Assembly (NCBI RefSeq): GCF_009827395.1
Contig: NZ_WTYX01000001.1
Coordinates: forward strand, 770,001 to 834,000
Length of the DNA stretch: 64,000 nt
Direction: 5' to 3'
Source of the DNA: Pontixanthobacter aquaemixtae
Lineage (GTDB): Bacteria > Pseudomonadota > Alphaproteobacteria > Sphingomonadales > Sphingomonadaceae
This document shows, one piece after another, positions 5,316 through 58,358 of this stretch. Every line of letters begins with the position of its first letter. Within the stretch, counting starts at the first letter, position 1. A model generated the notes under the pieces. That model made no database searches, was not told the DNA's origin, and saw only the letters and a program-made list of their open reading frames with translations. The position numbers were made by a program, and so were the translations under genes.

Positions 5316-5329
5316 TTCGCCGTGGCGAT
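5316..5329. promoter_or_regulatory. WTCGC-N4-GCGAW site, Rieske/SDR divergent promoter
   Basis: TTCGC-CGTG-GCGAT. It lies 73-86 bases before the Rieske ATG and 100 bases before the SDR start, so it could serve both directions. Its right arm is also the beginning of the larger palindrome at 5325-5346. Confidence 0.6.
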
Positions 5330-5346
5330 CACCTGCGGGTGATCGC
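5325..5346. repeat. Perfect 9-bp inverted repeat in divergent promoter
   Basis: Arms GCGATCACC (5325-5333) and GGTGATCGC (5338-5346) with a 4-base TGCG spacer. It sits midway in the 185-base gap between divergently transcribed genes. A dimeric regulator site is the simplest reading; a transcribed hairpin is possible but no T-run follows. Confidence 0.6.
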
Positions 5347-5401
5347 TTGCACCTATGCTGGTGATGGCGCACTCTAGCTGATGCAATAGCTGGAGCGAGC
5401 G

Positions 5402-6757
5402 ATGAACAAGCCTTTTCCTGATAGTGAAATGCTACAAAAACCCGTGCGCGTGCCGGCCGAGGCCTATATTTCGCGCGAATACGCGGCGCAGGAGCAGGAG
5501 CGGTTGTGGCGCAAGGTTTGGCTTCAGGCGGGACGGACCGAAGATCTCAAAAAGGCCGGGGACTTCATAACTTACGAGATTGGTTCCGATTCAGTGGTTA
5601 TCGTGCTGGATGAAAGCGGGGATCTCGCCGCTTATCACAACGTTTGCCCGCATCGTGGTCGGCGGTTGGTCGATGTTCCTTCGGGTGAGCGGAACGCATG
5701 CGGAACGCGGAAAAACTTCATTTGCGGGTATCACGGCTGGACCTTTGGCCTCGATGGCGAAAACACATTTGTCGAACATGAGGAAGACTGGCAGGGCGCG
5801 CTCTGCAATGGCCGGGGCGATCTGAGCAAGGTCTGTGTCGAAAGCTGGGGCGGGTGGATATTCATCAACCTGGACCCTGAATGCGAGCCCTTGGCGGATT
5901 TCCTCGGCGTGATTCCGCAGATGCTTGAGCCCTATCAGCTCCAAAATATGCGCGCACGTTGGCGCAAGTGGATCATCTTCGACTGCAATTGGAAAGTCGC
6001 GATGGAGGCTTTTTGCGAAACGTACCATGTCGCCACCACGCATCCTGAATTCAATGCCTATGGCAAGTTTCGCGGCTGGTCGCGCAACCACGGCCTGCAT
6101 ACCAATATCGGCTATGAGGCGCCCAAGGGCATGGAGGAAGACACCGGAAAAATGCGCGTCGGGACAGAAGGGATTGACCCGCGTGCCACCACTGCGGAAA
6201 TGCAGAATTACACCTGGGAAGCGGCCAACACCAATACTACCGAAAAGCTGGTAGAGGTTGCCAACCGGTTGGTAGATGAGCTTCCCGAAGGCACATCTGC
6301 GGCTGAGGTTTCAGCATACTGGATCAAGACCGCGCGGGAAGAGGACGCTGCGCGCGGTGTTGTCTGGCCTGAGGTCGCGCCCGAACACACTGTCGAGGCA
6401 GGCACGGCATGGCAGGTTTTCCCTAACTTCCAGATCGGGCAGGGCGTCCAGAATATGCTCTGCTACCAAGCCCGGCCTTATAAGGGCGATCCCGACAAAT
6501 GCATTTTCGAAGCATCCGTCTACCAACTCTATCCCGACGGCGAAGAGCCTGAAACACAATGGGAATATACCGAGCCGGAAGATTGGCCCCCTGTGCTGCA
6601 GCAGGATTTCTCCAACATGGCCGCGGTGCAGGAAGGTATGAAAAGCGCCGGCTTCGCTGGAGCACAGCCCAACCCTTATATGGAAAGGGCGGTTGCCAGC
6701 CTGCACACAAACCTCGCGCGGTACATGGGCGCTGGTGAGCCTGTGCCCCTTGATTAA
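5402..6757 (+). CDS. Rieske non-heme iron oxygenase, alpha subunit
   Basis: Ring-hydroxylating-type oxygenase of 451 residues. The Rieske [2Fe-2S] ligands are Cys82, His84, Cys108 and His111 (CPHRG ... CGYHGW). The mononuclear iron ligands are visible in TYHVATTH (HxxxxH) with an Asp likely in VLQQDFSNM. The gap between the two Rieske pairs is 23 residues, longer than the roughly 17 usual. Paralogue of the enzyme at 30056: they share DELPEGT, VVWPE, PDKCIFE and the C-terminal PNP ... LH-N-LA pattern. No reductase gene is nearby. The next gene, 19 bases downstream, encodes an NTF2-fold protein, the same fold as oxygenase beta subunits. Confidence 0.93.
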   Translation: MNKPFPDSEMLQKPVRVPAEAYISREYAAQEQERLWRKVWLQAGRTEDLKKAGDFITYEIGSDSVVIVLDESGDLAAYHNVCPHRGRRLVDVPSGERNACGTRKNFICGYHGWTFGLDGENTFVEHEEDWQGALCNGRGDLSKVCVESWGGWIFINLDPECEPLADFLGVIPQMLEPYQLQNMRARWRKWIIFDCNWKVAMEAFCETYHVATTHPEFNAYGKFRGWSRNHGLHTNIGYEAPKGMEEDTGKMRVGTEGIDPRATTAEMQNYTWEAANTNTTEKLVEVANRLVDELPEGTSAAEVSAYWIKTAREEDAARGVVWPEVAPEHTVEAGTAWQVFPNFQIGQGVQNMLCYQARPYKGDPDKCIFEASVYQLYPDGEEPETQWEYTEPEDWPPVLQQDFSNMAAVQEGMKSAGFAGAQPNPYMERAVASLHTNLARYMGAGEPVPLD

Positions 6758-6776
6758 GGCAAGGGACGTCAGTTCG

Positions 6777-7349
6777 ATGTCAGATACGAAGATCGATGAA
6801 ATTCTGGAGACGGTCCGTTATTTGAAAGACCGGCAAGACATCCTCGACTGCATCATGCGCGAAGTGCGTGGCCGCGACCGTCACGATGAGGACCTTACCC
6901 GATCTTGCTATTGGGAAGACGGTTTTGACGAGCATGGGCCAAGCATCATGCAAGGCCCCGAATATCCCGCGCGCGCCAACGCCGGGCATGCGGCTTTTTT
7001 CTCTATGACAACGCATAACATCACCAGTCACACCTGCGAAATTGACGGGGCGACCGCGAATTGTGAGACCTATGTTGTTGGCACTTTGCTGTCGAAGGAC
7101 GGGGGAACCTGTACGTTTGCGCCGGGCCGCTACATTGATCGTTTGGAGAAACGCGAGGGCGAGTGGCGAATTCTCCATCGCCGGTGCACAGTTGATATGT
7201 CACTGGAGGGCAGTGCCGAATGGGTACACGGACCGGCGGTCAAGGGGTTCCTGAGACCGACATGGGACAAGGACGATATATCCTACAAGCGGCCAATTGC
7301 AGTCGGCTCTGACGGGCCGCGTTGGGGGGATGGCGATCCTAGCGAATGA
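6777..7349 (+). CDS. NTF2/SnoaL-like protein, possible oxygenase partner
   Basis: A 190-residue protein of the nuclear-transport-factor-2/SnoaL superfamily. The pattern DRQDILDCI ... EDLTRSCYWEDGFDEHG is typical of the SnoaL_4 group, and the C-terminal half ends in strands such as GRYIDRLEKREGEWRI. The frame is open back to 6693, but ATG 6777 starts the conserved region. It follows the Rieske alpha gene closely, so it may act as a small subunit or process the hydroxylated product; the second is just as likely because many such proteins are isomerases or cyclases. It overlaps the convergent SDR gene by 11 bases. Confidence 0.75.
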   Translation: MSDTKIDEILETVRYLKDRQDILDCIMREVRGRDRHDEDLTRSCYWEDGFDEHGPSIMQGPEYPARANAGHAAFFSMTTHNITSHTCEIDGATANCETYVVGTLLSKDGGTCTFAPGRYIDRLEKREGEWRILHRRCTVDMSLEGSAEWVHGPAVKGFLRPTWDKDDISYKRPIAVGSDGPRWGDGDPSE

Positions 7350-8214
7350 TCAGCGGATATTGCTCGCGCGGTGCCAGCTGATGCGTTTCGCGCGCGGATT
7401 GCGGCACCCGTCCTTCGGCATCGGCGACTCCGTATCGCTGGCCCAGTTCCGCGCCGATCAGGGTCTGGCCGGATAGGTCGTGCAGGCCCTTGTCTTGCAA
7501 GAGTTCCCACAACACATGCCCGGTGAAATCTGGCGTTTCCAAGCGATCAAGAAGAAAAGAGTATTTCTCTGGCTCCTGATCAATCATGTCGAGCAAGCGT
7601 TCGGTCGCGAGCCCGCCCATCCAGACAGATATTGCCGAAACGCCTGTGTCGGCCAAATCGACCGCCATGTCTGCCGCCATCTTGTCGAGCGCAGCCTTGT
7701 GGGCGCCATAGGCGGGGCCGTAACAATAATGGACCGCGCCAGGTGAAGAGGTAAAAGCGATCAGACCGCCACCTTGTTTCACCATCATTTGCGCCGCAAA
7801 CCAGCTGGCCTCGTAAGAGCTTTTGATCCCGACATCGAGCATCCTGCCGAGCGAAATAGGCTTCTCCCAGAAGTTGCCGGGGGTCGTCAGTGCATCCTGA
7901 ATAGCGCAGGCATTGTTTACGAGAAGGTCGAGTCGGCCGCTTTCGCTCTCGATCCGCTCAAACAGCGCGGCCACATCGCTTTCGACCGAGTGGTCACAGC
8001 GAACGGGAATTCCTGTGCCGCCAACCTCGGTCACTTCATTAGCGGTCTGTTCAACAGTGCCGCCGAGCCTGTTGTCGGTCGTGCCCGATGATCGGGCGGT
8101 TACGTAGACGGTGCAGCCATGCGAGCCAAGCGCGCGGGCTATTCCCCGGCCGGCACCTCTGCTTGCGCCGGTTACAAGCGCAATCGGCGGCGGACCGGAA
8201 TTGTCGGCTTTCAC
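7339..8214 (-). CDS. SDR-family oxidoreductase, DHRS1-like
   Basis: A 291-residue short-chain dehydrogenase. The dinucleotide loop is VTGASRGAGRGIARAL, the structural motif is VNNACA (NAC instead of NAG), and the catalytic pair is in YGAHK. The long C-terminal part after the active site (YGV..EGRVPQ) fits the DHRS1-like group. Its ATG overlaps the stop of the TauD gene by four bases (ATGA), so the two are probably made together. The TauD product may be the alcohol or hemiacetal substrate, which is inference. Confidence 0.88.
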   Translation of the reverse strand: MKADNSGPPPIALVTGASRGAGRGIARALGSHGCTVYVTARSSGTTDNRLGGTVEQTANEVTEVGGTGIPVRCDHSVESDVAALFERIESESGRLDLLVNNACAIQDALTTPGNFWEKPISLGRMLDVGIKSSYEASWFAAQMMVKQGGGLIAFTSSPGAVHYCYGPAYGAHKAALDKMAADMAVDLADTGVSAISVWMGGLATERLLDMIDQEPEKYSFLLDRLETPDFTGHVLWELLQDKGLHDLSGQTLIGAELGQRYGVADAEGRVPQSARETHQLAPREQYPLIIR

Positions 8215-9056
8215 GCGAAGGATTCTTCGCCCTCAAGTTTGGTTCGGACCATCAACCTGCCGCTGCTGACATCATACCACTCGGCGCGATGCATCGTGCC
8301 GGTATTGTCCCAGATGACCAAATCGCCTTCGGACCATTCGTGACTATAGGTAAATTCATCGCGTGTCGCCCATTCGCGCAGTTCGTTGAGAATGAGCCGG
8401 CTTTCCATCTGGTCTTTTCCGACAACTGTGTGCGCCGTGTTGCCCAAGACGAGCGATTTTCTGCCCGATTTGTGTTTCCAAACCAGCGGCAGTTCATTGT
8501 CGCCGATTGACTGCATCCCTTTGAGCATCGCCACCGGCGGTTCCGGGTTGTAGAAAAACAGGCTGGCCCATGCGCCGTGCCGCACCTTCAAGCCATCAAT
8601 CCGGTCCTTTTCCTCTTGCGGAAGCGCGTCATAGGCCGCGTATGTGTTGGAAAAGCCGGTGTTTCCGGTGCCTTTGGGCGATGGCTTCTTGCACGCAAGA
8701 ATCGAAGCCAGGATCGGAACATCCTGCATCGTGCCGTCAATGTGCCAGTAAAGCGAACCTTTCAGATATTCTGCAGTTGCACCGGCAATCTTCGGATCAA
8801 TCGAAATCTTTGTGACTTCCTCCGCGTCACCTTGGCGTTCCGGGGCATAGGTCCCGAGCGTCTTGGTGAAAGCGATTTGCTCTTCTTCGGTGAAGTTGAT
8901 TTTTGGAAATACCAGAACGCCGCGAGCTTCCAGCTCTTCGCGGATCGCTTCGCCCAGCTCGCCCGACAGTAGATCTTCCTTCGAGTTGAGGATTTTACTG
9001 CCAATCAGTGGACGGATTTGCTCGACTTCAATCGAAGTGTCGGTGGCTACGCTCAT
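8211..9056 (-). CDS. TauD/TfdA-family Fe(II)/2-oxoglutarate dioxygenase
   Basis: A 281-residue 2-oxoglutarate-dependent dioxygenase. The iron triad is readable as His105-x-Asp107 (WHIDG) and His256 (TMHRAEW), and the 2-oxoglutarate Arg lies in SSGRLMVRT. I choose ATG 9056, preceded by GGAG, over the upstream in-frame ATG at 9110. The enzyme oxygenates C-H bonds. Taurine use is unlikely because no sulfonate transporter genes are present, and the coupled SDR suggests hydroxylation followed by alcohol oxidation of the island's carbon substrate. A second TauD protein at 40200 is only distantly similar. Confidence 0.9.
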   Translation of the reverse strand: MSVATDTSIEVEQIRPLIGSKILNSKEDLLSGELGEAIREELEARGVLVFPKINFTEEEQIAFTKTLGTYAPERQGDAEEVTKISIDPKIAGATAEYLKGSLYWHIDGTMQDVPILASILACKKPSPKGTGNTGFSNTYAAYDALPQEEKDRIDGLKVRHGAWASLFFYNPEPPVAMLKGMQSIGDNELPLVWKHKSGRKSLVLGNTAHTVVGKDQMESRLILNELREWATRDEFTYSHEWSEGDLVIWDNTGTMHRAEWYDVSSGRLMVRTKLEGEESFA

Positions 9057-9110
9057 AGTGGTTTCTCCGCATACTACCCCAATCATACAGAAGGGGAGTT
9101 GATCATCCAA

Positions 9111-9124
9111 TTCGCACGGGCGAT
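9111..9124. promoter_or_regulatory. WTCGC-N4-GCGAW site upstream of tauD-like operon
   Basis: TTCGC-ACGG-GCGAT, 55-68 bases upstream of the TauD-type start at 9056, in the 83-base gap after the SDR at 9140. It suggests that TauD and its SDR have their own regulated promoter despite lying downstream of the P450 and SDR genes. Confidence 0.55.
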
Positions 9125-9139
9125 GTTGCGCCGTTCCTG

Positions 9140-9886: not shown

Positions 9887-9914
9887 CGCTTCTTCCTTTC
9901 GCATTGGTTTGCAA

Positions 9915-11057: not shown

Positions 11058-11145
11058 GCGGGTCCTCCCATGACTTGCATCGGGCTGACGGATCGTAATG
11101 GCAAAACCGTCTGGAGTCGCCCGAGGCAGCATTCACCAGCCGCAA

Positions 11146-11159
11146 ATCGCCGTGGCGAT
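11146..11159. promoter_or_regulatory. WTCGC-N4-GCGAW site between P450 and acyl-CoA synthetase
   Basis: ATCGC-CGTG-GCGAT, a perfect copy, 87-100 bases before the synthetase start and 89-102 before the P450 start. An extended -10-like TGCTATGAT (hexamer at 11192-11197) lies downstream on the plus strand, which would put the site centre near -50. Confidence 0.6.
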
Positions 11160-11245
11160 GCAAGCGCAGCTGGAGGCGCCAAGTGTTGTGCTATGATCGA
11201 ATGTGCCGTTGATGTGCATCTGACCCGATAGACAGGAGACGGAAA

Positions 11246-12835: not shown

Positions 12836-12935
12836 ACGCTGCATCGCTGGTGCGCTTTCTGGGGCAGGGACTTGCAGCCGCCGCCCAGCAGGGTAGCTCT
12901 GGTATCAACGATTGAATGGCGCGAGAGGACTAACC

Positions 12936-22271: not shown

Positions 22272-22302
22272 AATATCGAATGATATTCAATATATCGAAT
22301 GA
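22272..22302. promoter_or_regulatory. Candidate IclR operator overlapping the iclR start codon
   Basis: Direct repeat ATATCGAATGA at 22273-22283 and 22292-22302, 19 bp apart. Between them are two interlocking inverted repeats: AATATC-N4-GATATT (22272-22287) and GATAT-N5-ATATC (22282-22296). The second direct repeat includes the iclR ATG. A regulator bound here would block its own start and could control the divergent ligase operon, as IclR proteins often do. Confidence 0.65.
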
Positions 22303-23090
22303 ATGAAGCTGCGTCCTCTACTCCCCCATCCAAAGGAAAAGCCCCGGCCATTGCCCGCGCGGTCGCCATATTGCGCTTGCTTGGGCGCAGCGAAAAACCT
22401 CTTGGAGTTCAGGCGATTGCCCGCGAACTTGAGCTGGTTCCAAGCACGTGCCTTTACGTTCTTCGCGCACTGGTTGAAGAACAGCTTGTCGCGGTTGATC
22501 CGAACTCCAAGCTTTACCGGCTTGATGCGGGGGTGCTGTCACTCGCCAGGGGGTGGCTGAAGCAAGATCGCTTCGCCGACATCGTGCAGCCAGAACTTGA
22601 TTTGTTGGCGCAGCAGTCCGGTGTCAGCACCATGGCGGTCCAGATTGTCGGACTTGATCACATCATTGTGATCGGAACGGCGCAAGGAAGTGCCAGTTTC
22701 CAACTGTCCGCTCATATCGGCAGCCGCTTTCCGGCCCTGATTAGCGCAACCGGACGGTGCATTGCAGCGTTTGCCGATGTTTCCGTTGCCAGCTTGCAGG
22801 AACGCTTTTCGGAGCTGCGCTGGGATAACCCGCCGACATTTGAACAATGGCTCACCCAGATTGGCGAGACCCGGACGCGGGGCTTTGCCGTGGATGACGG
22901 TTTCTACATGGCGGGCGCGACCGTGCTTGCCGCACCGGTGTTCTCGCAGCCGGGCAGCGCGCCGGGGCACGCACTTGTCGCTTTGGGTATGGAGGGCAAT
23001 GTTCGCGATGCCGGAGTGGATATGATTGGCGAAGCCTTGCGAAAATCTGCGGCTGTACTTTCATCCCGGCTTGAAAGCACGGGCGGCTGA
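22299..23090 (+). CDS. IclR-family transcriptional regulator
   Basis: A 263-residue regulator. An N-terminal winged helix (about residues 17-80, including VAILRLLGRSEKPLGVQAIARELELVPSTCL read in parts) is followed by the IclR effector domain (VQIVGLDHIIVIGTAQ, FPALISATGRCIAAF). The ATG has no ribosome-binding site and is the first in-frame start after TGA at 22281, so a leaderless transcript is possible. It is divergent from the ligase/dehydratase/hydroxylase/esterase operon, which it probably controls in response to an aromatic or acyl ligand. Confidence 0.9.
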   Translation: MNEAASSTPPSKGKAPAIARAVAILRLLGRSEKPLGVQAIARELELVPSTCLYVLRALVEEQLVAVDPNSKLYRLDAGVLSLARGWLKQDRFADIVQPELDLLAQQSGVSTMAVQIVGLDHIIVIGTAQGSASFQLSAHIGSRFPALISATGRCIAAFADVSVASLQERFSELRWDNPPTFEQWLTQIGETRTRGFAVDDGFYMAGATVLAAPVFSQPGSAPGHALVALGMEGNVRDAGVDMIGEALRKSAAVLSSRLESTGG

Positions 23091-23094
23091 TTGC

Positions 23095-23108
23095 TTCGCG
23101 TCTGCGAT
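23095..23108. promoter_or_regulatory. WTCGC-N4-GCGAW site upstream of NTF2-like gene
   Basis: TTCGC-GTCT-GCGAT, 80-93 bases before the start at 23188 and just after the iclR stop. A -10-like TATAGT lies at 23146-23151. Confidence 0.55.
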
Positions 23109-26829: not shown

Positions 26830-28245
26830 TCAGCCGTGACCGACAATAGCTTTGGTTTCGAGATATTCCTCAAAGCCGTGCGCACCCCATTCGCGGCCAT
26901 TGCCGCTGCGCTTGTAACCGCCGAACGGGGCGTTGAAGTCAAATCCACCGTTGACGTAAATTGCGCCGGCACGGATTTTCTTCGCGATAGAGCGGCAGGC
27001 CTCGATATCTTCGCCATTCACGTATCCCGCCAAGCCGAAATCGGTGTCGTTGGCGATTTCGACAGCGCTTTCGATGTCGTCGTAGCCAATCATGACCAGC
27101 ACCGGCCCGAAGATCTCCTCGCGCGCGACAACCTTGTCGTTGCTTGTGGCAAATACCGTTGGTTTAACGAAGAAGCCTTTTTCGAGGCCATCAGGGCGCC
27201 CGGGGCCGCCCGCTACGAGTTCGGCCCCTTCTGCAATTCCCTTCTCGATATAGTCCTGCACTGTCCGGTACTGCTCTTCGGAAACAACCGGACCCATCGC
27301 CGCATTGCCGCGCGGATCGCCAACTTCAACGCTCTCAGCCGCCGCCTTGGCCAGAGCTTTGGCTTCATCCATCCGCGATGACGGGACAAGCAGGCGCGAT
27401 CCGGCGCTGCAGGTCTGCCCCGAATTGACCATCATGCCCGTCGTCGCGCCGGTGACATGTTCCGCCATCGACGCGTCGTCCAGAACGATGAACGGGCTTT
27501 TTCCGCCCAGCTCAAGGCAAACGCGCTTGACCGTGTCGGCCGCATCCTTGCTGATCTGGACACCAACGCTTTCCGACCCGGTGAAAGAGATCATATCAAT
27601 ACCGGGGTGCTTGGAGATGGCACTGCCGATGACAGATCCCTTGCCCTGCACCATATTGAAGACGCCCTTGGGAACCCCGGCTGCATCGAGAATTTCGGCG
27701 AGTATTTGCGCGGAATAGGCGGCCAGTTGTGGCGGCTTGAGAACGATCGTGCAGCCAGTGGCGAGGGCAGGGAATACCTTTACCGTCACTTGGTTTATTG
27801 GCCAGTTCCACGGCGTGATCATGCCGCAAACCCCGATGGGTTCCTTCACGATCAGGGTGTCGCCCTGTTGCTCCTCAAAAACGTAGTTTTCCAGGCTTGC
27901 GATCGCGGTGTCGAGGTGACCCGTACCAAGGAAGGTATGGAAACCGGAGGCAAGCGAAGCTGGCGCGCCCATCTCTTCGGTGATCGCAGCGGCGAGTTCG
28001 CCTTGCCGTTTGTCATATTCCGCCTTGATCGCCCGGAGCAGATCGAGCCTCTCTTCGCGTGAAGTCTGCGAATAAGAGGCGAATGCGCGGCGAGCTGCCT
28101 TGACCGCCAGATCAACATCCTCGGCTGTGCCCAATGCAATGCGGCCAGAGACTTCCTCTGTTGCAGGATCGATCAGGTCGACGGTTCCTTCGCTTTGCGG
28201 GTCAACCCATTCGCCATCGATGTAGAATTTCAGATATTCGCGCAT
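26830..28245 (-). CDS. NAD(P)-dependent aldehyde dehydrogenase
   Basis: A 471-residue aldehyde dehydrogenase with complete catalytic residues: Glu245 in LELGGKS and Cys279 in NSGQTCSAG, preceded by TPWNWPINQ and FTGSESVG. It oxidises an aldehyde to an acid. The gene lies between the beta-propeller and the ThDP enzyme. If the ThDP enzyme is a lyase releasing an aldehyde, this would be the next step; that order is inference. A second ordinary aldehyde dehydrogenase at 52211 belongs to another operon. Confidence 0.92.
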   Translation of the reverse strand: MREYLKFYIDGEWVDPQSEGTVDLIDPATEEVSGRIALGTAEDVDLAVKAARRAFASYSQTSREERLDLLRAIKAEYDKRQGELAAAITEEMGAPASLASGFHTFLGTGHLDTAIASLENYVFEEQQGDTLIVKEPIGVCGMITPWNWPINQVTVKVFPALATGCTIVLKPPQLAAYSAQILAEILDAAGVPKGVFNMVQGKGSVIGSAISKHPGIDMISFTGSESVGVQISKDAADTVKRVCLELGGKSPFIVLDDASMAEHVTGATTGMMVNSGQTCSAGSRLLVPSSRMDEAKALAKAAAESVEVGDPRGNAAMGPVVSEEQYRTVQDYIEKGIAEGAELVAGGPGRPDGLEKGFFVKPTVFATSNDKVVAREEIFGPVLVMIGYDDIESAVEIANDTDFGLAGYVNGEDIEACRSIAKKIRAGAIYVNGGFDFNAPFGGYKRSGNGREWGAHGFEEYLETKAIVGHG

Positions 28246-33347: not shown

Positions 33348-33450
33348 GGGCTCTCCCTTTATGGCCATTTGTTGGTGACCTTAATCAACAGCCGTGTCGA
33401 TTCCAGAGCCAATGCCTTATTCCTAACTCTTATCGCCACGGCGGTGTCGC

Positions 33451-33464
33451 ATCGCTGGTGCGAT
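33451..33464. promoter_or_regulatory. WTCGC-N4-GCGAW site, BVMO/SDR divergent promoter
   Basis: ATCGC-TGGT-GCGAT, about 104 bases before the BVMO start and 94 before the SDR start. A degenerate copy (ATCGC-CACG-GCGGT, 33432-33445) lies exactly 19 bp away, the same spacing as the two perfect copies at 51348 and 51367. Confidence 0.6.
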
Positions 33465-34316: not shown

Positions 34317-34501
34317 GGCCGTTGATCGTGCAACAGGGACCAGTAAGTTTAACCGAAAAGGGGCGTATCGCTCCGGCGTTATTGAGCGCCCGAGTCTGGA
34401 ACTTTGCACAACAGTTGATCAACAGTGGTGTGCACTAACTGCACCGGTGTGGGCGTGAGCCTGCTTAGATATGGTGCGGGAGTAACACGGGAGAGTTGGA
34501 A

Positions 34502-37351: not shown

Positions 37352-37365
37352 ATCGCGCAAGCGAT
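37352..37365. promoter_or_regulatory. WTCGC-N4-GCGAW site upstream of CMD/sulfotransferase operon
   Basis: ATCGC-GCAA-GCGAT, 100-113 bases before the CMD-family start at 37465 and just after the terminator, so it can only concern the downstream operon. Confidence 0.6.
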
Positions 37366-42342: not shown

Positions 42343-42356
42343 ATCGCCGCTGCGAC
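42343..42356. promoter_or_regulatory. WTCGC-N4-GCGAW site 1, hotdog/TetR divergent promoter
   Basis: ATCGC-CGCT-GCGAC (last base off consensus), 109-122 bases before the TetR start and 88 bases before the hotdog start. Confidence 0.5.
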
Positions 42357-42379: not shown

Positions 42380-42393
42380 TTCGCACTGGCGAT
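42380..42393. promoter_or_regulatory. WTCGC-N4-GCGAW site 2, hotdog/TetR divergent promoter
   Basis: TTCGC-ACTG-GCGAT, 72-85 bases before the TetR start and 37 bp from site 1. Two sites in the promoter of a regulator gene make autoregulation by this TetR protein a natural hypothesis. Confidence 0.6.
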
Positions 42394-42464: not shown

Positions 42465-43154
42465 ATGACACGACAAGGTAAACGGCGCGCTCGCGATCCA
42501 ATCGCAACCCGTGCTGACATTCTCGATGCCGCATTGACGCTTCTGGCCAAGGATGGCCTAGAGGCAGTGAGCCTTTCCGGAGTGGCGACACAGGCCGGTG
42601 TTAACCGGGGGACCGCCTATCAACATTTTGAAACGCGGGAGAGCCTCCTGGCGGCCGCCTTGCAACTGGTTTCAGAACGTATGTTCGAAGCGGTGTTCGG
42701 AGATTCGAACATTCTGGCGGAACGCGATGTCCGCAAGGTGGACATGGTCGAAACCACCGAAAATCTTGCAATATTCGCGATGGAAAATACCGAGCTCTGC
42801 CGGATCTGGCTGCTCCAATTGCTGGCGATGCCCGATCCGTCGCGCGATCCGTTCTGGCGCGAATACTCAGGCTCCATCGCACGCTTTGCCGAAACCGACC
42901 TCGCTAAACCGGGTATCGATGTTGATGTCTGGTCGCTGATTTCGCTTGCTGGCCAGTTTCTCTGGCCCGTCTGGTCGCGATCGCAGGCGAGAAGCGAGGA
43001 AGAGAAAGAGCAGCTGGTGCAGCGCTTTACCAATGAAATGCTGCGTCTCTCGGTCCACGGCGCTGTCGATCCGGAAAAGAACCCGAGCGTAATGGCGCGG
43101 CTCGCCTGGTCCAAAGGCAGGGGCGATCGCGAGAAGCGCAAAGCGACAAACTGA
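42465..43154 (+). CDS. TetR-family transcriptional regulator
   Basis: A 229-residue TetR regulator. The N-terminal HTH is in ILDAALTLLAKDGLEAVSLSGVA ... GTAYQHFETRESLL (read in parts), and the rest is the helical ligand domain. ATG 42465 is preferred over 42423. It heads a long rightward gene set (reductase, CoA ligase, NTF2, sulfatase, SDR, phosphoesterase) and is divergent from the hotdog/TauD pair. Two copies of the island palindrome lie in its promoter, so it is a leading candidate for the protein that binds them. Confidence 0.9.
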   Translation: MTRQGKRRARDPIATRADILDAALTLLAKDGLEAVSLSGVATQAGVNRGTAYQHFETRESLLAAALQLVSERMFEAVFGDSNILAERDVRKVDMVETTENLAIFAMENTELCRIWLLQLLAMPDPSRDPFWREYSGSIARFAETDLAKPGIDVDVWSLISLAGQFLWPVWSRSQARSEEEKEQLVQRFTNEMLRLSVHGAVDPEKNPSVMARLAWSKGRGDREKRKATN

Positions 43155-50555: not shown

Positions 50556-51335
50556 ATGGCGTTATTTACCACCATCCATTTGCATAACGTAGCTGACGCG
50601 AAGGAGGAGGCTTACGCACAATGGTTTGATGGCGATCACCAGGCTGATCTCGCTCGCCTGCGCGGGTTCAAGAGTGCGGACCGTTACGAGATTACACAAG
50701 AGCAAATCATGCCGGATATCGCCCAACCGTGGCGTTTCATGAGCGTATACGAATTCGATTATCAATCGCCCGAAATCGATTTGCCTGCGCTCGGCCCGCT
50801 ATTGGCCGAATCCCGTGACAGTGGCCTAATCGATGATACAGACCAGTCAGAACGCATTTACAGCTACCGGATGTATTCGGACTGGGTGTTCAGCGGAAAC
50901 TATCAGTCCGATCAGCCATTTTCGGGCGTGTCGATCATTCTGGCAAACTTTGTTGCCGGCCGTGAAGCAGAGTATCACGAATGGTACGATAATGTGCACG
51001 CGCCGGAAGTAACAAAAGTGCCCGGCAAAGTGGGCATGAAGCGCGGAAGATTGTCTGACATACAGGTTGAGCCGCGCCGATATTGCCCAGGCAGCGAGCT
51101 CGTTTTCTGCGCGCAGCAAACCGATGATCTTTTGTTCACGGTAAAGGACTTCAGCGCCCGCGCGCGCGGCGTCAGCCCATCGGGAATAGCATTTCAGGAA
51201 CGATCAACGGCAGGATCCTTTGCGCGCACCGTTCACTACTTTCGCAGGATCAGTGGAGGCGCTTTCTGGAAAGGCGGGGTGGCTTATTATGGCGACCTTT
51301 CGGTGTATCCCGCTGACTTTGCGAGACCCGCCTAG
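50556..51335 (+). CDS. EthD-like double ferredoxin-fold (dimeric alpha/beta-barrel) protein
   Basis: A 259-residue protein that appears to hold two alpha/beta-barrel-type halves: residues about 1-95 (EEAYAQWFDGDHQADLARL) and about 120-225 (AEYHEWYDNVHAPEVTKVPG). The xxYxxWYxxxHxPE pattern is characteristic of EthD-type proteins, which accompany P450 or ring-cleavage systems and may act as isomerases or decarboxylases. ATG 50556 has GGGAGAA; the upstream open stretch looks non-coding. No member of this group at this locus can be given a reaction. Confidence 0.7.
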   Translation: MALFTTIHLHNVADAKEEAYAQWFDGDHQADLARLRGFKSADRYEITQEQIMPDIAQPWRFMSVYEFDYQSPEIDLPALGPLLAESRDSGLIDDTDQSERIYSYRMYSDWVFSGNYQSDQPFSGVSIILANFVAGREAEYHEWYDNVHAPEVTKVPGKVGMKRGRLSDIQVEPRRYCPGSELVFCAQQTDDLLFTVKDFSARARGVSPSGIAFQERSTAGSFARTVHYFRRISGGAFWKGGVAYYGDLSVYPADFARPA

Positions 51336-51347
51336 AAAGCGCCAAGC

Positions 51348-51361
51348 ATCGCGCCTGCGAT
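51348..51361. promoter_or_regulatory. WTCGC-N4-GCGAW site, first of tandem pair
   Basis: ATCGC-GCCT-GCGAT, 84-97 bases upstream of the SDR start at 51445. It forms the first unit of the 19-bp tandem repeat below. Confidence 0.6.
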
Positions 51362-51366
51362 CATAC

Positions 51367-51380
51367 ATCGCGCCTGCGAT
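51367..51380. promoter_or_regulatory. WTCGC-N4-GCGAW site, second of tandem pair
   Basis: ATCGC-GCCT-GCGAT, 65-78 bases upstream of the SDR start. It controls, presumably, the SDR/aldehyde dehydrogenase/TetR operon. Confidence 0.6.
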
Positions 51381-51444
51381 CATACATTACGGGCATTGGC
51401 ATATGTCCGATGAGCAAGCCTAAACTGGCTTTAAAGAGGAATTT

Positions 51445-52209
51445 ATGACCAAGACAATTGCAATTACAGGTGGTGGCGAAGGACTGGGGCGTGTGCTTGC
51501 CAGACGTTTCGCGGCAGATGGTGACCGTGTCATCTTGCTTGGGCGGACTTTTGCCAAGGTGGAAGCTGTCGCAGAAGAACTGGGCGAGCCGCATTTCGCC
51601 GTCCAATGCGATGTTACCGATCCCGATTCAGTACGAAGCGCATTCAAAACTATCGGCGAAAAATGCGACCGGCTGGATGTGCTGGTCAATAACGCCGCAT
51701 CTTACGAGCCATTTGAGCTTTCGGACGTGACCGACAGCCAACTTGCCGCCACGATCAATACGAATCTGGCTGGACCGATCCTGTGCGCACGCGAAGCGCT
51801 GCCATTGCTGCAGGGCGGGGGGCATGTGGTCAATGTCAGTAGCGAAAGTGTCCGTCTGAAATTCGCGATGCAATGGCTCTACACGGCGACGAAGGCCGCT
51901 CTCGAAGTGTGCTCGGAAATGTGGACTCGCGAATTGGAGCCGCAAGGTGTTCGGTCGACAGTCGTCCAATGCGGGCAAATGTTCGATGAATCAAAGACCG
52001 GTTCGACATGGCCGATGGAAGTCGCCATCAAATTCATGGAAGAAAACATGAAAGTAGGCATCGATGTCCGAAATCGTCCATTGTCGCACTTCAAATCGGT
52101 AGCCGAAGTGTTCCGCGCGGTGATCGATACCCCGCCGGATGTTCACCTCGGAATCGTGACAATCAGTGGAAACCGCCCGAGCGACGGTCAAACAAAGGGA
52201 AACAGCTGA
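51445..52209 (+). CDS. SDR-family oxidoreductase
   Basis: A 254-residue SDR: ITGGGEGLGRVLARRF, VNNAASY (NAA for NAG), catalytic YTATK. The C-terminal part (EVAIKFMEENMKVGIDVRN) is less typical and lacks the usual final VDGG strand. AGAGGA lies upstream of the ATG. First gene of an operon with an aldehyde dehydrogenase (next ATG two bases after the stop) and a TetR gene, suggesting alcohol-aldehyde-acid oxidation under its own regulator. Confidence 0.87.
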   Translation: MTKTIAITGGGEGLGRVLARRFAADGDRVILLGRTFAKVEAVAEELGEPHFAVQCDVTDPDSVRSAFKTIGEKCDRLDVLVNNAASYEPFELSDVTDSQLAATINTNLAGPILCAREALPLLQGGGHVVNVSSESVRLKFAMQWLYTATKAALEVCSEMWTRELEPQGVRSTVVQCGQMFDESKTGSTWPMEVAIKFMEENMKVGIDVRNRPLSHFKSVAEVFRAVIDTPPDVHLGIVTISGNRPSDGQTKGNS

Positions 52210-53674: not shown

Positions 53675-53676
53675 GG

Positions 53677-54399
53677 ATGGAACTGGGGTTGAACCAAGAG
53701 CAGAACAGAGTGCGTGTCGCGCTTGACCGCGCTCAACGTGCAAAAGTGGTTCACAACCTGCAGGGGCAAAAGCTTGGCCGTAAAGGCCAAATTACCCGCG
53801 CCAAGATTATCGCTGCCGCGCAAGAATTAATCGCGGAAAGCGATGACCCCAATATCTCGCTAAGCGCTGTGGCCCGCGTGGTCGGCATCGGGATGACTTC
53901 GCTCTATAATTACTTCGCTGACCTGTCAGAGCTGGTGCTCGCTCTGCTGGAATTGGCGATGGAAGATGCTGACGAGGCCTACATCCATCATTTGTCCGAG
54001 CGGTGGAGCGATGAAACCCTGGCGGAGGATTGCCGCAAATTTGTGACCAACTTCGCCGAGTTCTGGGCGAGAAACGCAAATCTTTTGCATGTCCGCAATT
54101 ACCTTGCCGACCAGCGAAACCAGCAGATGATCCACCACCGTGTTCTTGCGGCGAAACAGGTTGGCCTGCTGCTTACCATGCAAATGGATACGGAGCCCGA
54201 TGGGCGCGACTCCATGACCCAAGGGATGGCTACGGCGCTTTACATCGCGATTGAACGGGTGTCCTCGGTGCTTAACAACGGTGATCTGCCTGCGGATGTC
54301 GACGGAAGCTTCAGGCCGAAGAGCACATTCCTGCTCGAAGCGCAGTCGCATCTTCTGGAAATGGGCTTGCGCTCGATGAGAGAGCAGAACCGCGGCTAG
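53677..54399 (+). CDS. TetR-family transcriptional regulator
   Basis: A 240-residue TetR protein with an unusually long N-terminal arm (about 38 residues, basic: RAQRAKVVHNLQGQKLGRKG in part) before the HTH ITRAKIIAAAQELI ... GMTSLYNYFADLSELV. The ATG follows two bases after the aldehyde dehydrogenase stop, with only a weak ribosome site. Being last in an operon that carries two palindromes in its promoter makes it an alternative candidate for the island-wide regulator. Convergent with the hydratase at 54406. Confidence 0.87.
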   Translation: MELGLNQEQNRVRVALDRAQRAKVVHNLQGQKLGRKGQITRAKIIAAAQELIAESDDPNISLSAVARVVGIGMTSLYNYFADLSELVLALLELAMEDADEAYIHHLSERWSDETLAEDCRKFVTNFAEFWARNANLLHVRNYLADQRNQQMIHHRVLAAKQVGLLLTMQMDTEPDGRDSMTQGMATALYIAIERVSSVLNNGDLPADVDGSFRPKSTFLLEAQSHLLEMGLRSMREQNRG

Positions 54400-54405
54400 C
54401 GCGGA

Positions 54406-55206
54406 TCAAGACTTCTTGTTGCCCAGCTTGGCAATGTAATCGTCGATCCGTTTGCGATAGGCCGGGTTCAGCATCAGCGCGCTGTTGGCCATTCGCTCTA
54501 CATGCCGCCCCTGTTCACGGCCCAGATCGGCAGCAAGCTCAATCGCGATTTTGGCTGCACCCATTTGTTCCGGATCGCTCTTGGTCAAATGGCGGCAAAA
54601 ATCGAGGGATGCTTCCTCAAACCCGTCATCTGGTGTGACATCGTGCACCAGGCCCATGATCAACGCCTTTTGCGCATCTGCTTTCTTGTTGCCCATAATC
54701 AGCCAACGTGCCCAATGGGGGCCGCACAGGCGCGTCAACCGGCTTACCCCGTTGGAGGCCGGAAGAACGCCGAACAGCCCTTCCGGAAACGAAAATTCGG
54801 CGTTTTCGGATGCGAGGCGGAAATCGCACGAGAGCGCAAGTTCAAGCCCGCCGCCCACGCAGGTCGAATGGATAGCGCAGACGATCGGCTTTTCGATATG
54901 TTCCATCTCGTCATAGATGCGGTGCATACCATGCAGTCCGATCCTGTGATTTTCCCTGATCTCGGTCGCCGTTTGCGGGCGAGGGCGGTCGGAACTTCCT
55001 TTGAGATCCGCGCCAGAGCAGAAAAAGCGCCCCGTTGCGCGAACCAGCAGGACTCTGAGTGCAGGATCGTCCCTGAAACGGATCAGGGCCTGTTCGAACA
55101 GCTCCATGGTCTCGCCCGAAAGCGCATTGAGCTTGTCGGGGCGGTTCAATGTCGCGATCAGGATGCCATCGCGTTCTTCGGTCAGCAGATGCGGTTCGTC
55201 ACTCAT
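54406..55206 (-). CDS. Enoyl-CoA hydratase/isomerase (crotonase) family protein
   Basis: A 266-residue crotonase. Oxyanion-hole motifs are FFCSGADLKG (about 64-73) and CVGGGLELALSCD (about 112-124). The acidic active-site region reads FSFPEGLFGVLPASNG, with one Glu kept. ATG 55206 is chosen; upstream residues to 55242 lie in the intergenic gap. It follows the fused acyl-CoA dehydrogenase 10 bases downstream, so a dehydrogenation-hydration pair is the obvious inference. Confidence 0.9.
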   Translation of the reverse strand: MSDEPHLLTEERDGILIATLNRPDKLNALSGETMELFEQALIRFRDDPALRVLLVRATGRFFCSGADLKGSSDRPRPQTATEIRENHRIGLHGMHRIYDEMEHIEKPIVCAIHSTCVGGGLELALSCDFRLASENAEFSFPEGLFGVLPASNGVSRLTRLCGPHWARWLIMGNKKADAQKALIMGLVHDVTPDDGFEEASLDFCRHLTKSDPEQMGAAKIAIELAADLGREQGRHVERMANSALMLNPAYRKRIDDYIAKLGNKKS

Positions 55207-55216
55207 AGATATAACC

Positions 55217-57424
55217 CTAGGCCCGGGTCCGCGGCAGGCCAAGTCCCCGTTCGGCGATCATTGATCGGTGCACTTCGCTTGTACCGCCATAGATCTTTGT
55301 CCCGTGGGCGTGGCGGTAGGACTGGTTGATAAGCGCAGCAGCGCCTTTGCGTTTGGTCAGCGATAATGGCGCGGTAAGGTTCATTAGATCGCGCGCATCA
55401 TCCATAAATCGTTCGGACGAAAACATTTTGGCCATCGGGCCGTATGCCAGATTGGGTTTCTTCTCGACACCGGCCCATGTTGCGCGATGTTCAAACAACA
55501 GGGACACTGCCACGTTGGCCCGCGCCTTCATAAGGCGCTGCTGTGCATCAAGGGTTTCGATCAGTTTCTGCCCCATACCGGTATCGATTTCGCTGCAAAG
55601 CTCTTCGGCAGCTTCGACAGTATGTAGCATAGGGTTGGAAAACCCTCCGCCATGCTCGAGCTCGAGTGCAAGCGACATCGTGCGGACACCGCCATCCACC
55701 TCGCCAAGCCGCCAGCTGTCGGGGATCTTGACGTTATCGTAGAAGGTTATGTTGGTCCGTTCGTCCTGGAAAGTGTGGACTGGCTGGATGGTCACGCCTT
55801 CCGCTTTCAGCGGGACAATGAACATCGTCAGCCCCTTGTGTTTCGGGACTTCCGTGTTGGTGCGTGTCAGCATCAAGACATAGTCAGACAGGTTCGCCCC
55901 GCTGGTGAACATCTTGGTGCCGTCGATACGCCACCCATTGCCATCGGGAGTAGCGCGTGTTTGGGCAGCGAAAACATCTGAACCGGCCCCGGGTTCGGAA
56001 TAGCCGAGGCTGGCGATTGAATCCCCTGACATGATTTTTGAAAGGACTTCTTCCTTCAATTCGTCCGAGCCGGCGCGTGAGATCATCAGGCCGACCATTT
56101 CGGCAACGCCCGCCGCTGGATTGTTGTAGCCGTGACGATCGAATGTCCGTCGTGCCGCAGCCTTGGCGTAAGGGCCTATGCCGCGCCCGCCGAGTTCAGG
56201 GCTGGAGAGAAACATCAGCTTCGCCTCGATCAGCTTCTTGTGAAGCTCCGGAACCCAACCTTCCCAACTGTAGTGGAATTTTTCACGCATTTCAGGCGTG
56301 ACATTGGCGTCCATGAAGGCGTCGATTTCGGCCATCACGTTGCGGGCTTCCTCGCCAATATCAAATTCGATTGGCAGGTCGCCCACATCGGGCAGGTACA
56401 CGCTTGTCTTGCCATAATGGCGCGTGGCCGCTTCGCCGAGAAGCAATTGAGGATCGCCCCAGACCAAGGGCCATGAGCGGGCGCGCAATGTGTAAAGGTA
56501 GATGTCATATTCGGTGGTCAGGCCATAGCCGCCAAAAGTCTGGAGCGATTGGCTGACGGCCTTTCCGGCTGCGTCGATATTCCACCACAAACACGTCGAA
56601 ACTTGCGCCGCTGCATCGGTTTCGTTGTCGGCAATGGCGCGCATTGCCTTCCATGCAAGCAGCTTGCCGCCATCGACTTCGCAAAGTCGGTCCGCGAGCG
56701 GATGGCTGATCGCCTGAAATTGGCCGATCAGTTGGCCGAATTGCTTGCGTTCGCTGGCATATTCAGCCGCCATTTTGAGCGCCTGCCGACCGAGGCCGGC
56801 GAGCGCGACCGAAGTCAGCAGTTTCCATTCTTCGATGGTGGCTTCGAAAAGCGCGGCTGCTTCGGGCCCCGAGGCAAGCGGGGTCGATTTTGCCGACGCC
56901 AGATCGACTTCGGCCAAGCTGTCCGATGCGAGATTCTTTTCCGCAGGGCGTGCCTCGCTTGGTACTTCGTACAGGACAACCTCGTCGCCGCGACGCCCGA
57001 TGACGATCTCGGCGACTGTACCGCCTGCAACAAATTGTGATGGACGCGAAGCCGTGTCGTGCAAAGCTACCGAAGCCACGGTTCCACCCGATACAACGTT
57101 TGCCAGACAGTCCGCCGCATTGTCTGTCCCCAGCATTGCTATCAATCGCGCGGCCAGGAGGGTTTCAGCGATAGGTCCAAAAGGCAGTTTCCGCCCGACT
57201 TCTTCCATCAGAACAGCGGCATCGAAAGTGCCGAGGCCGAGACCGTCCTGTTCCTCTGGCACGCGGAGAAGAAATGCGCCCAGTTCCGCAAGGCCGGCCC
57301 AAACCTCCTTGTCAAAACCGGATTTCTCGGACTCGCGCAGGCGTTCGGGTGTGCACTTGTCATCAAGCAGCCGCGCGAAGCTCTCGCGCATCATTTCCTG
57401 ATCTTCGGTCAAATCGAAGTTCAT
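55217..57424 (-). CDS. Two-domain fused acyl-CoA dehydrogenase
   Basis: A 735-residue protein made of two acyl-CoA dehydrogenase units. Unit 1 (about 1-345) starts MNFDLTEDQEMMRESF and has QFQAISHPLADRL and FGGYGLTTEY. Unit 2 (about 355-735) has LGYSEPGAGSD, YGPMAKMFSSERF and ends YGGTSEVHRSMIAERGLGLP. Normal family length is about 380, so this is a real fusion. Steroid-degrading actinobacteria use alpha2-beta2 heteromers of two separate acyl-CoA dehydrogenases for bulky ring-bearing acyl-CoAs; this chain looks like such a pair joined. It is followed by a hydratase and preceded, four bases away, by an SDR. Confidence 0.92.
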   Translation of the reverse strand: MNFDLTEDQEMMRESFARLLDDKCTPERLRESEKSGFDKEVWAGLAELGAFLLRVPEEQDGLGLGTFDAAVLMEEVGRKLPFGPIAETLLAARLIAMLGTDNAADCLANVVSGGTVASVALHDTASRPSQFVAGGTVAEIVIGRRGDEVVLYEVPSEARPAEKNLASDSLAEVDLASAKSTPLASGPEAAALFEATIEEWKLLTSVALAGLGRQALKMAAEYASERKQFGQLIGQFQAISHPLADRLCEVDGGKLLAWKAMRAIADNETDAAAQVSTCLWWNIDAAGKAVSQSLQTFGGYGLTTEYDIYLYTLRARSWPLVWGDPQLLLGEAATRHYGKTSVYLPDVGDLPIEFDIGEEARNVMAEIDAFMDANVTPEMREKFHYSWEGWVPELHKKLIEAKLMFLSSPELGGRGIGPYAKAAARRTFDRHGYNNPAAGVAEMVGLMISRAGSDELKEEVLSKIMSGDSIASLGYSEPGAGSDVFAAQTRATPDGNGWRIDGTKMFTSGANLSDYVLMLTRTNTEVPKHKGLTMFIVPLKAEGVTIQPVHTFQDERTNITFYDNVKIPDSWRLGEVDGGVRTMSLALELEHGGGFSNPMLHTVEAAEELCSEIDTGMGQKLIETLDAQQRLMKARANVAVSLLFEHRATWAGVEKKPNLAYGPMAKMFSSERFMDDARDLMNLTAPLSLTKRKGAAALINQSYRHAHGTKIYGGTSEVHRSMIAERGLGLPRTRA

Positions 57425-57428
57425 AATA

Positions 57429-58256
57429 TTACTCCGACTTTCTTCCTCGCCTCATCATCTTGCTGATATCGACTTGGCCGGTGGCCAAACCGCCCATGAA
57501 ACCACCATCGACCGGGAAGACGACGCTGTTTACGACAGAGGCAAGATCGCTGTTTATGAGGACCAGTCCGCCGGCTTGCTCCTCTGCAGTGGTGTATCGG
57601 CCGAGCGGTTCCGCAGCCGCGTCAACGACGTCCTTGCCCGATGCCTCGTGAAACTGCTTCATCATCGGCGTTTCGGTTGGCGAGGGGAGAGTGCAATTCA
57701 TACGGATCCCCTGCTTGATCAGGCGCGCGCCCATGAATTGGGTCCAGACGATCACGTTCTCTTTTGAGAAAGAGTAACCTTCGTTGACCGTTTCCATATT
57801 GGCTTCGCACCATTCTACCGCAGCATCCCAGCCTTGGGTTGTCACGAATTCCATATTGGTGGGGATGCGCCGGCTCCATCCCAGCCCGCCGGTCGATGCG
57901 ATGTTGGCAATTGCGCCTCCGTCAGCCATCAAGGGCAGAACCTGTTCGGTCAGATGGCGCAGGCCGATGAAATTGACTTTCATGATGTCCATCGCCGGAA
58001 ACCCGGTCGGCAAACCTGCGCAGTTGAACAGCGAATCCACCTTGCCACCGATCGCGCTTACGCCGGCTTCGATTGATGCCGGATCGCGCAGGTCAATCTG
58101 GTTGAAGGAGGCTAGCGGAAGATCGCATTCCTTGAAGTCCAAGCCATGGACTTCTGCGCCGAGCTCGCCGAGCATCTTGGCCGTAGCATGGCCCATACCG
58201 GAATAGCACCCGGTCACGACAACCCGTTTGCCCTTGTAACCCAAAATGTCGGTCAT
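57429..58256 (-). CDS. SDR-family oxidoreductase, 3-alpha-HSD-like
   Basis: A 275-residue SDR: VTGCYSGMGHATAKML, FNCAGLPTG (CAG for NAG), catalytic YSFSK, end FPVDGGFMGG. The missing second acidic strand and the short central part, together with CAGL and TETPM, resemble 3-alpha-hydroxysteroid dehydrogenase/carbonyl reductase of Comamonas; that is a family resemblance, not proof of a steroid substrate. First gene of the SDR/fused dehydrogenase/hydratase operon, with a perfect palindrome about 90 bases upstream. Confidence 0.87.
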   Translation of the reverse strand: MTDILGYKGKRVVVTGCYSGMGHATAKMLGELGAEVHGLDFKECDLPLASFNQIDLRDPASIEAGVSAIGGKVDSLFNCAGLPTGFPAMDIMKVNFIGLRHLTEQVLPLMADGGAIANIASTGGLGWSRRIPTNMEFVTTQGWDAAVEWCEANMETVNEGYSFSKENVIVWTQFMGARLIKQGIRMNCTLPSPTETPMMKQFHEASGKDVVDAAAEPLGRYTTAEEQAGGLVLINSDLASVVNSVVFPVDGGFMGGLATGQVDISKMMRRGRKSE

Positions 58257-58344
58257 TTACGCACTCCTTCTGGCCAGAACCATTGACCGCTGATGCCAAA
58301 CTGATCGCAGTCAGCCCAGCAACGATCAATGCCCGGAACGCCAA

Positions 58345-58358
58345 ATCGCGGGCGCGAT
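58345..58358. promoter_or_regulatory. WTCGC-N4-GCGAW site upstream of SDR/fused-ACAD operon
   Basis: ATCGC-GGGC-GCGAT, 89-102 bases upstream of the SDR start at 58256 and 10 bases beyond the P450 stop. It marks an independent promoter for the 58256-54406 operon. Confidence 0.6.

Follow-up and report, generated by a model that had tools for sequence, protein, structure and literature searches.

Does a short palindrome that recurs between the genes of a 64-kb stretch of Pontixanthobacter aquaemixtae DNA mark the operons of a single regulon, and which protein would bind it? The stretch (the window below; positions 770001-834000 of contig C1, NZ_WTYX01000001.1, 57% G+C, in a genome of 2.98 Mb) carries an island of catabolic genes. 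An earlier reading made from the letters only (the sequence-only reading) had noticed the palindrome, WTCGC-N4-GCGAW, whose sites are numbered here from the outer W. It proposed one regulon over Rieske oxygenase, cytochrome P450, Baeyer-Villiger monooxygenase (BVMO), TauD, sulfotransferase, fused acyl-CoA dehydrogenase (ACAD) and aldehyde dehydrogenase (ALDH) operons, a proposal that phylogenetic footprinting strongly supports. According to our analysis a single dedicated regulator very probably docks at the motif, and the likeliest one is a protein of TetR type whose gene lies within the island. Of the three binders left open earlier, namely the TetR proteins at 42465 (TetR1) and 53677 (TetR2) and a Crp/Fnr-family protein, TetR2 comes out as the best candidate, while relatives of TetR1 carry another palindrome and no Crp/Fnr domain match was found in the island. 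Taken as a whole, we regard it as reasonably likely that the slightly wider consensus ATCGY-N4-RCGAT is the operator of one dedicated island regulator in Sphingomonadaceae and their close kin, with TetR2 as the presumed binder.

Enrichment of the palindrome in the window and in the genome

All eleven TCGC-N4-GCGA sites of the sequence-only reading are correctly placed and ten of them fit WTCGC-N4-GCGAW; the three near-matches it had listed (12843, 34367 and the one beside 33451) are present too, each with one core mismatch. The window holds 13 copies of the core, the two further ones being at 27983, inside an aldehyde dehydrogenase gene, and at 59824. Dinucleotide shuffles give 4.16 copies of the 8-base core (sd 2.04, largest 9) against the 13 observed, and 1.27 copies of the 14-mer (largest 5) against ten, so that the earlier guess of one or two chance occurrences holds for the 14-mer and is too low for the core. 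When gene starts are assigned by hand, noncoding DNA comes to 3,458 bp and contains 12 of the 13 core sites; among the 31 palindromes of the 4-N4-4 type in this DNA the TCGC arm occurs 12 times and each other arm once. A crude automatic gene mask, which takes the longest open reading frames first, leaves 9 of the 13 core sites noncoding, and with it TCGC-N4-GCGA ranks first in the window among 256 arms combined with 13 spacers (9 intergenic, 0.5 expected). Palindromic sites stand near the promoters of the operons that would be controlled: with starts chosen by hand, the start codon is 54-103 bp away in 14 of the 15 site/gene pairings and 133 bp away in the remaining one.

The statement that the spacers differ, and that no repeat was copied, stands only in part. 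Positions 51348-51385 form a perfect 19-bp tandem duplication which contains two operators with identical N4, and the sites at 5316 and 11146 share the N4 CGTG; in relatives, the arms are indeed kept while N4 and flanks diverge.

Genome-wide, WTCGC-N4-GCGAW occurs 70 times, compared with 28 for a reversed control pattern, and ten of the 70 copies fall in the window, that is, in 2.1% of the genome; for the stronger form ATCGC-N4-GCGAT the counts are 20 and 3, with six of the 20 in the window. Within the window the sites are denser in intergenic than in coding DNA. Nor are they spread over unrelated loci: among the 38 examined of the 60 sites outside the window, three are intergenic by the crude mask, and two of these flank the window, at C1:742888 and C1:836188, which lie 76 and 53 bp, respectively, ahead of predicted genes. 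Another flanking site, C1:758467, is probably intergenic too, as the Rieske frame that covers it looks over-extended. On the same 38 of 60 outside sites, the intergenic copies in the genome are largely confined to the island.

Conservation of the motif in relatives

A search with TetR1 found five relatives among 198 other genomes of the family, to which Sphingobium and Sphingomonas belong. When named genomes were scanned, 80 loci came out, from Novosphingobium, Sphingobium, Sphingomonas and others, from gammaproteobacteria (Solimonas, Steroidobacter) and from some unplaced metagenome-assembled genomes (loci and genomes are denoted by L and G numbers). In 54 of these loci, nearly all sphingomonad, ATCG-N6-CGAT ranked first (44 intergenic, 9.0 expected) and TCGC-N4-GCGA second (43, 8.8 expected) of 3,328 patterns. 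In the other 26 loci, which include L092, labelled Novosphingobium, the motif is absent from the top eight patterns of the same palindrome scan; the CAAC-N3-GTTG signal of non-sphingomonad loci resembles the TetR1-type palindrome described below.

The strongest conservation is seen upstream of the relatives of the short-chain dehydrogenase/reductase (SDR) gene at 51445, whose regions were merged when identical over the last 120 bases and skipped when shorter than that. A perfect motif is present in 37 of 56 distinct regions, 65-122 bp before the gene, where first-order resampling expects 0.22; within one core mismatch the figure is 52 of 56 (15.4 expected). The ALDH gene comes next in 54 of the 56 and TetR2 follows also in 46, most others ending before TetR2 (adjacency was checked separately); the perfect motif heads SDR-ALDH-TetR2 in 30 of these 46, which places the putative operator on the candidate regulator's own operon. 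Four regions have no match. In three of them (L095, L207, L208) an EthD gene runs straight into the SDR gene without a gap, so that no promoter is expected there, and the fourth, L077, reads ATCGT-N4-ACGAT. As several sites have ATCGT-N4 or N4-ACGAT, the consensus becomes ATCGY-N4-RCGAT. Across 34 representatives with flanks less than 60% identical, identity is 0.92 in the arms, 0.39 in N4 and 0.32 in the flanks, and 22 different N4 occur (L095, L207 and L208 were left aside in this comparison, and L069 as well in the consensus alignment). The sites are not all lost at orthologous promoters, and the motif is under selection: its arms are conserved there while spacer and flanks drift.

The site also accompanies other genes of the pathway. 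In G172, where pathway genes are scattered, it precedes SDR51445-ALDH-TetR2, the relative of SDR 57429, the enoyl-CoA hydratase (ECH) gene ECH2 and, with one mismatch, the fused ACAD. G051, G168 and G021 have it in the gap separating SDR57429 from a P450 gene; it also stands before the fused ACAD in L064 and L069, and just before the BVMO in G051, where it is perfect. Many loci have it before TetR1 or between TetR1 and the medium-chain dehydrogenase/reductase (MDR) gene, with a copy upstream of TetR1 in G168 and G021, and a core-perfect site lies within 200 bp of the MDR gene in 20 of 61 regions.

Some loci show further peculiarities. G757 (L197, L198) carries two TetR2 genes, each on DNA with an SDR51445 relative as well. 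The perfect sites of these two relatives differ in N4, and no ALDH gene was found beside the SDR of L198. In L069 the site pair before the fused ACAD is 37 bp apart, the spacing of 42343/42380 in the window.

TetR2 as the favoured binder

Presence of TetR2 goes along with the motif. The 80 loci divide into 53 from genomes with TetR2, 24 without it, two with weak matches and one of unknown state; L096, L108, L111, L115, L117 and L119 were scored as lacking TetR2 through a negative other locus of the same named organism, and L088 as having it from the search of the family sample. Loci with TetR2 contain 37 intergenic and 56 coding copies of WTCGC-N4-GCGAW (density ratio 11.7), those without it 2 and 19 (ratio 1.5); a Fisher test that does not correct for relatedness gives p = 0.01. 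Single genomes point the same way: G171 has TetR2 and a site, G025 TetR2 and a one-mismatch site, both with no TetR1 found, while G027 has TetR1, no TetR2 that we could find and no WTCGC-N4-GCGAW near TetR1-MDR-ligase. In the family sample 12 of 199 genomes match TetR2 (the window's own included, five of them weakly), one metagenome-assembled genome labelled Rhodospirillaceae (L090) has it, and it was not found in 288 other genomes of the class or 298 other genomes of the phylum that were sampled.

The protein itself may have a TetR-type DNA-binding domain at its N-terminus. Its alignment has invariant residues of the N-terminal arm NLxGQxLGxKGxxTR, TetR_N matches 12 of the 14 alignment members at E<=0.01 (best 3.3e-9), and the closest solved structures align chiefly over the N-terminal helix-turn-helix region. 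It stays below every NCBIfam cut-off, the best being the FabR model with 31.1 bits against 151. Because TetR1, IclR and TetR3 are judged unlikely, as set out below, and because TetR2 stands in the operon with the best-kept site, TetR2 is the remaining candidate.

Several observations weigh against this assignment, or against the regulon as we draw it. The window's TetR2 scores 20.9 bits (E 3e-4) with Pfam TetR_N, below the cut-off of 24. Co-occurrence is confounded with lineage, since most loci without TetR2 are non-sphingomonad, and it has exceptions on both sides: L059 (Novosphingobium sp. HII-3) has sites and L113 (Steroidobacter) one perfect intergenic site, with TetR2 not found in either, and L102 and L104 carry TetR2 with no intergenic site within their 20 kb. 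The L059 contig ends 3.9 kb beyond TetR1, and the TetR2 gene may be missing from the draft. One-mismatch matches, expected by chance in 15.4 of 56 regions, deserve little weight alone. There is no perfect site before the BVMO of G021, and the third intergenic site outside the window, C1:1627323, is off the island, before a transaldolase-like gene. Two TCGC sites precede the window's own TetR1, and the palindrome that would belong to TetR1, TCAACA-N4-TGTTGA, is not found within four mismatches before the TetR1 of the window or of G027; this absence, together with L113 as a second exception, makes our confidence in TetR2 slightly lower.

Other candidate regulators

It is unlikely, in our opinion, that the motif is bound by the IclR protein at 22299, by TetR3 (60064, a third TetR regulator absent from the sequence-only reading) or by some further regulator. 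Of 19 genomes looked at, 16 have IclR and 15 have TetR3. G171 is among the genomes with IclR, and those without IclR show only one-mismatch or no clear sites, which tells against TetR2. But IclR seems to have an operator of its own: the divergent ligase2-IclR gap keeps an A+T-rich element of the TATTCAATATATCGAAT type in nine sequences from eight genomes (L095 and L040 being the same genome; L042, L043, L053, L102 and L104 are among the other loci), which is probably the IclR operator. No perfect TCGC motif occurs there: it is missing from all 8 ligase2 and all 7 IclR upstream regions, of which 6 and 1, respectively, have a form with one mismatch. IclR was moreover not found in G025, G764 and G766, of which G025 and G766 have one-mismatch sites, and searches for TetR3 found it neither in G051 and G171, whose sites are perfect, nor in G025 and G766. 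The genes for P450b and TetR3 are neighbours (58369-60714) in the window, in Novosphingobium piscinae (L086) and in Solimonas terrae (L118), which suggests a separate regulatory pair.

Somewhat less probable still is a real regulon bound by an activator of the Crp/Fnr family with its gene outside the island. Fnr-type sites share the geometry of a 14-bp palindrome with N4, the site lies upstream of a -35-like box in relatives, as activator sites do, and the genome has seven HTH_Crp_2 matches above the cut-off. However, among the 10 Crp matches listed none is in or near the island (the nearest on C1 is at 563 kb), and intergenic copies are mostly limited to the island, unlike the site of a global regulator. 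Crp/Fnr proteins recognise TTGAT-N4-ATCAA or TGTGA-N6-TCACA, and the observed ATCGY-N4-RCGAT differs from these cores.

That TetR1 binds the motif and regulates itself through 42343/42380 appears improbable. In its favour are the two sites directly before the gene in the window, where the TCAACA palindrome was not found, and the fact that 15 of 80 loci have a perfect TCGC site no more than 450 bp upstream of TetR1, a count that speaks against TetR2. Yet relatives of TetR1 share another signal, TCAACA-N4-TGTTGA, which occurs upstream with at most two mismatches in 20 of 84 regions (0.2 expected by shuffling) and with at most three in 46 of 84 (3.9 expected), in sphingomonads and gammaproteobacteria alike, L051, L059, L079 and L118 being among the carriers; the 84 regions contain one genome twice (L021, L095) and near-identical strains. 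Core-perfect TCGC sites within 200 bp upstream of TetR1 number, by comparison, 7 of 80. TetR1 was not found in G025 and G171 despite their sites, whereas G027 and nearly all of the gammaproteobacterial relatives (the exception being L113) have TetR1 and lack the motif, and the recognition-helix region of TetR1, NRGTAYQHF, is identical in gammaproteobacterial relatives that lack the motif. Although it is missing at the window's own TetR1, TCAACA-N4-TGTTGA is probably the TetR1 operator, and TetR1 is an unlikely binder of the TCGC motif. Further two-mismatch matches to it in the window, apart from those in Table 1, are at 2727 and 43598, both within genes.

That there is no operator at all, only a composition effect or a copied repeat, can practically be dismissed: the window's G+C content and the true duplication at 51348/51367 might invite such a view, but the reversed control is far rarer genome-wide (28 against 70) and has no intergenic copy in the 80 loci, and arms kept beside diverging N4 and flanks already contradict it.

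Promoter geometry and mode of action

We suggest that one regulator co-controls the SDR, Rieske, P450, BVMO, TauD, sulfotransferase, fused ACAD and ALDH operons. Each palindrome would be occupied by a single TetR2 dimer, the sites 51348/51367 would let TetR2 control the operon that encodes it, and a pathway intermediate may switch the protein. Activation could proceed from the site upstream of a -35-like box; the alternative is repression, perhaps helped by tandem sites.

The position of the site in relatives bears on this choice. Of 51 SDR51445 promoters, 27 have a TTG[ACT]C box that begins 11-13 bases past the palindrome; among 30 MDR promoters, 20 have it at a distance of 17-18 bases. These counts are non-independent as the promoters are related. 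If the boxes are −35 elements, the centre of the site falls near −54 or −60, a position like that of activator sites. Another box, TA---T at +23, occurs in 10 of 51 SDR51445 promoters and in none of the other promoter sets examined. The window has only four TTG[ACT]C boxes within 70 bases of its 13 oriented sites, and their offsets are scattered; moreover, TetR repressors do not usually have their sites upstream of -35, a point against our reading. A sigma-70-type promoter was not found at 51300-51460, and a sigma-54 promoter directly after the palindrome was dropped as a candidate since the spacing, in an alignment judged by eye, is not constant. On balance, the promoter geometry tips the scale to activation by little more than an even chance; if true, this would be an unusual mode of action for a TetR protein.

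One may even think, tentatively and with considerably more doubt than for the operator itself, of a layered control in many sphingomonads, in which TetR2, TetR1 and IclR would each have an own operator (ATCGY-N4-RCGAT, TCAACA-N4-TGTTGA and TATTCAATATATCGAAT, respectively), TetR2 would be an activator sitting just upstream of -35, and divergent promoters would be served by single central sites.

Extent of the regulon and features of the window

The regulon seems to extend past the window, from about 742.9 to 836.2 kb of C1, some 93 kb. Similar genes continue beyond both ends (C1:730-770 and 834-850 kb; L245, L246, L247), and by our own reading the flanks contain Rieske, thiamine diphosphate-dependent, ACAD, KstD-like and DUF1552/DUF1592-like genes, another TetR, a LysR and another IclR. 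The KstD-like flank genes, and a BVMO that is nearest to PtlE (under the cut-off), suggest a steroid or a terpenoid as the substrate.

The motif may be used as an operator code for a large catabolic regulon of sphingomonads, with 53 of the 80 loci in genomes where TetR2 was found. Such a code marks operons of one pathway where its genes are scattered, and it is the code that suggests an island reaching past the window. Table 1 collects the sites and regulators of the window.

Table 1. Putative operators, near-matches, other regulatory elements and regulator genes in the window (window coordinates; gene numbers are gene positions, signs in brackets are strands).
Feature	Sequence	Position	Strand	Location and remarks
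Putative operator	TTCGCCGTGGCGAT	5316..5329		Divergent gap SDR(-)/Rieske oxygenase(+); 99 and 72 bp to the two starts
Putative operator	TTCGCACGGGCGAT	9111..9124		Upstream of TauD-like dioxygenase 8211(-); 54 bp to start
Putative operator	ATCGCCGTGGCGAT	11146..11159		Between P450 9915(-) and CoA ligase 11246(+); 85 and 98 bp to starts
Near-match	ATCGCTGGTGCGCT	12843..12856		Ligase-Rieske gap; one core mismatch
IclR-type conserved element	GAATGATATTCAATATATCGAAT	22278..22300	+	
IclR regulator, judged not the binder		22299..23090	+	Conserved element in gap with ligase 20644
Putative operator	TTCGCGTCTGCGAT	23095..23108		Upstream of SnoaL-like 23188(+), directly 3' of the IclR gene; 79 bp to start
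Match to probable TetR1-type operator	TCAACAGCCGTGTCGA	33385..33400	+	Just before the BVMO; one mismatch to TCAACA-N4-TGTTGA
Near-match	ATCGCCACGGCGGT	33432..33445		19 bp ahead of the 33451 site; one core mismatch
Putative operator	ATCGCTGGTGCGAT	33451..33464		Between BVMO 31500(-) and SDR 33558(+)
Near-match	ATCGCTCCGGCGTT	34367..34380		Before TonB receptor 34496(+); one core mismatch
Match to probable TetR1-type operator	TCAACAGTGGTGTGCA	34419..34434	+	Before the TonB receptor; two mismatches
Putative operator	ATCGCGCAAGCGAT	37352..37365		Upstream of carboxymuconolactone decarboxylase (CMD)/sulfotransferase operon 37444(+); 99 bp to start
Putative operator	ATCGCCGCTGCGAC	42343..42356		Pair member 1 (37 bp spacing), between MaoC-like 41077(-) and TetR1(+); 96 bp to MaoC start
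Putative operator	TTCGCACTGGCGAT	42380..42393		Pair member 2; 71 bp before TetR1
TetR1, TetR regulator, judged not the binder		42465..43154	+	Relatives carry the other palindrome
Putative operator	ATCGCGCCTGCGAT	51348..51361		Copy 1 of the 19-bp tandem duplication; upstream of SDR 51445-ALDH 52166-TetR2 53677, the best-conserved location
Putative operator	ATCGCGCCTGCGAT	51367..51380		Copy 2 of the 19-bp tandem duplication; 64 bp before SDR 51445
TetR2, TetR-like regulator, best binder candidate		53677..54399	+	In the operon presumably led by 51348/51367; occurs together with the motif, exceptions apart
Putative operator	ATCGCGGGCGCGAT	58345..58358		Upstream of SDR 57429-fused ACAD-ECH operon (-)
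Core match	GTCGCACAGGCGAG	59824..59837		P450b-TetR3 gap; without outer A/T
TetR3, third TetR regulator, judged not the binder		60064..60714	+	No TetR3 found in G051 and G171, where the site is present

Comparison with known systems

In the open-licence literature we found neither the motif string, in the spellings tried, nor a description of a matching cluster or regulon. The operator sequences of PsrA/FadP and of KstR/KstR2 differ from ATCGY-N4-RCGAT. The Crp/Fnr-type sites (Fnr, NnrR, CooA) share with our motif the 14-bp twofold palindrome, the N4 centre and, in relatives, the place upstream of a -35-like box; unlike them, it has no TTGAT or TTGCG core, and no such gene was found in the island.

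Closer in kind are the pathway-wide TetR regulons. PsrA and FadP are described, in the available part of the source, as TetR regulators of fatty acid degradation (PMC5343134), and the system discussed here is like theirs in that comparative genomics reconstructs a regulon which spans a whole pathway and joins many operons through a short operator, although the pathway in our island is not plain fatty acid degradation. In mycobacteria, KstR and KstR2 are reported to be dedicated TetR proteins controlling cholesterol utilization genes (PMC3068626); they come from another phylum, and the match between the TetR2 profile and KstR chains is limited to some 55 N-terminal positions (E about 2e-4).

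Among sphingomonads, the bile-salt and progesterone clusters of Caenibius tardaugens include TetR genes, and the available passages on them contain no such motif (PMC12882949, PMC12239570). The same organism has EdcR, a TetR repressor that acts on the estradiol cluster and for which a palindromic operator, TnnCnnTACnAnTnGTAnnGnnA, is proposed; going by the sections at hand, EdcR controls two operons plus edcR and edcT from a site overlapping the -10 box (PMC8700777). Judged from these sections, EdcR is likewise a sphingomonad TetR regulator with a palindromic operator, and its cluster is a steroid catabolic one; unlike our motif, TnnCnnTACnAnTnGTAnnGnnA has arms of other sequence and length, so that the sites described here are not EdcR operators by that proposal. 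In this company the regulon of the island would be a new one, probably of the known TetR catabolic type.

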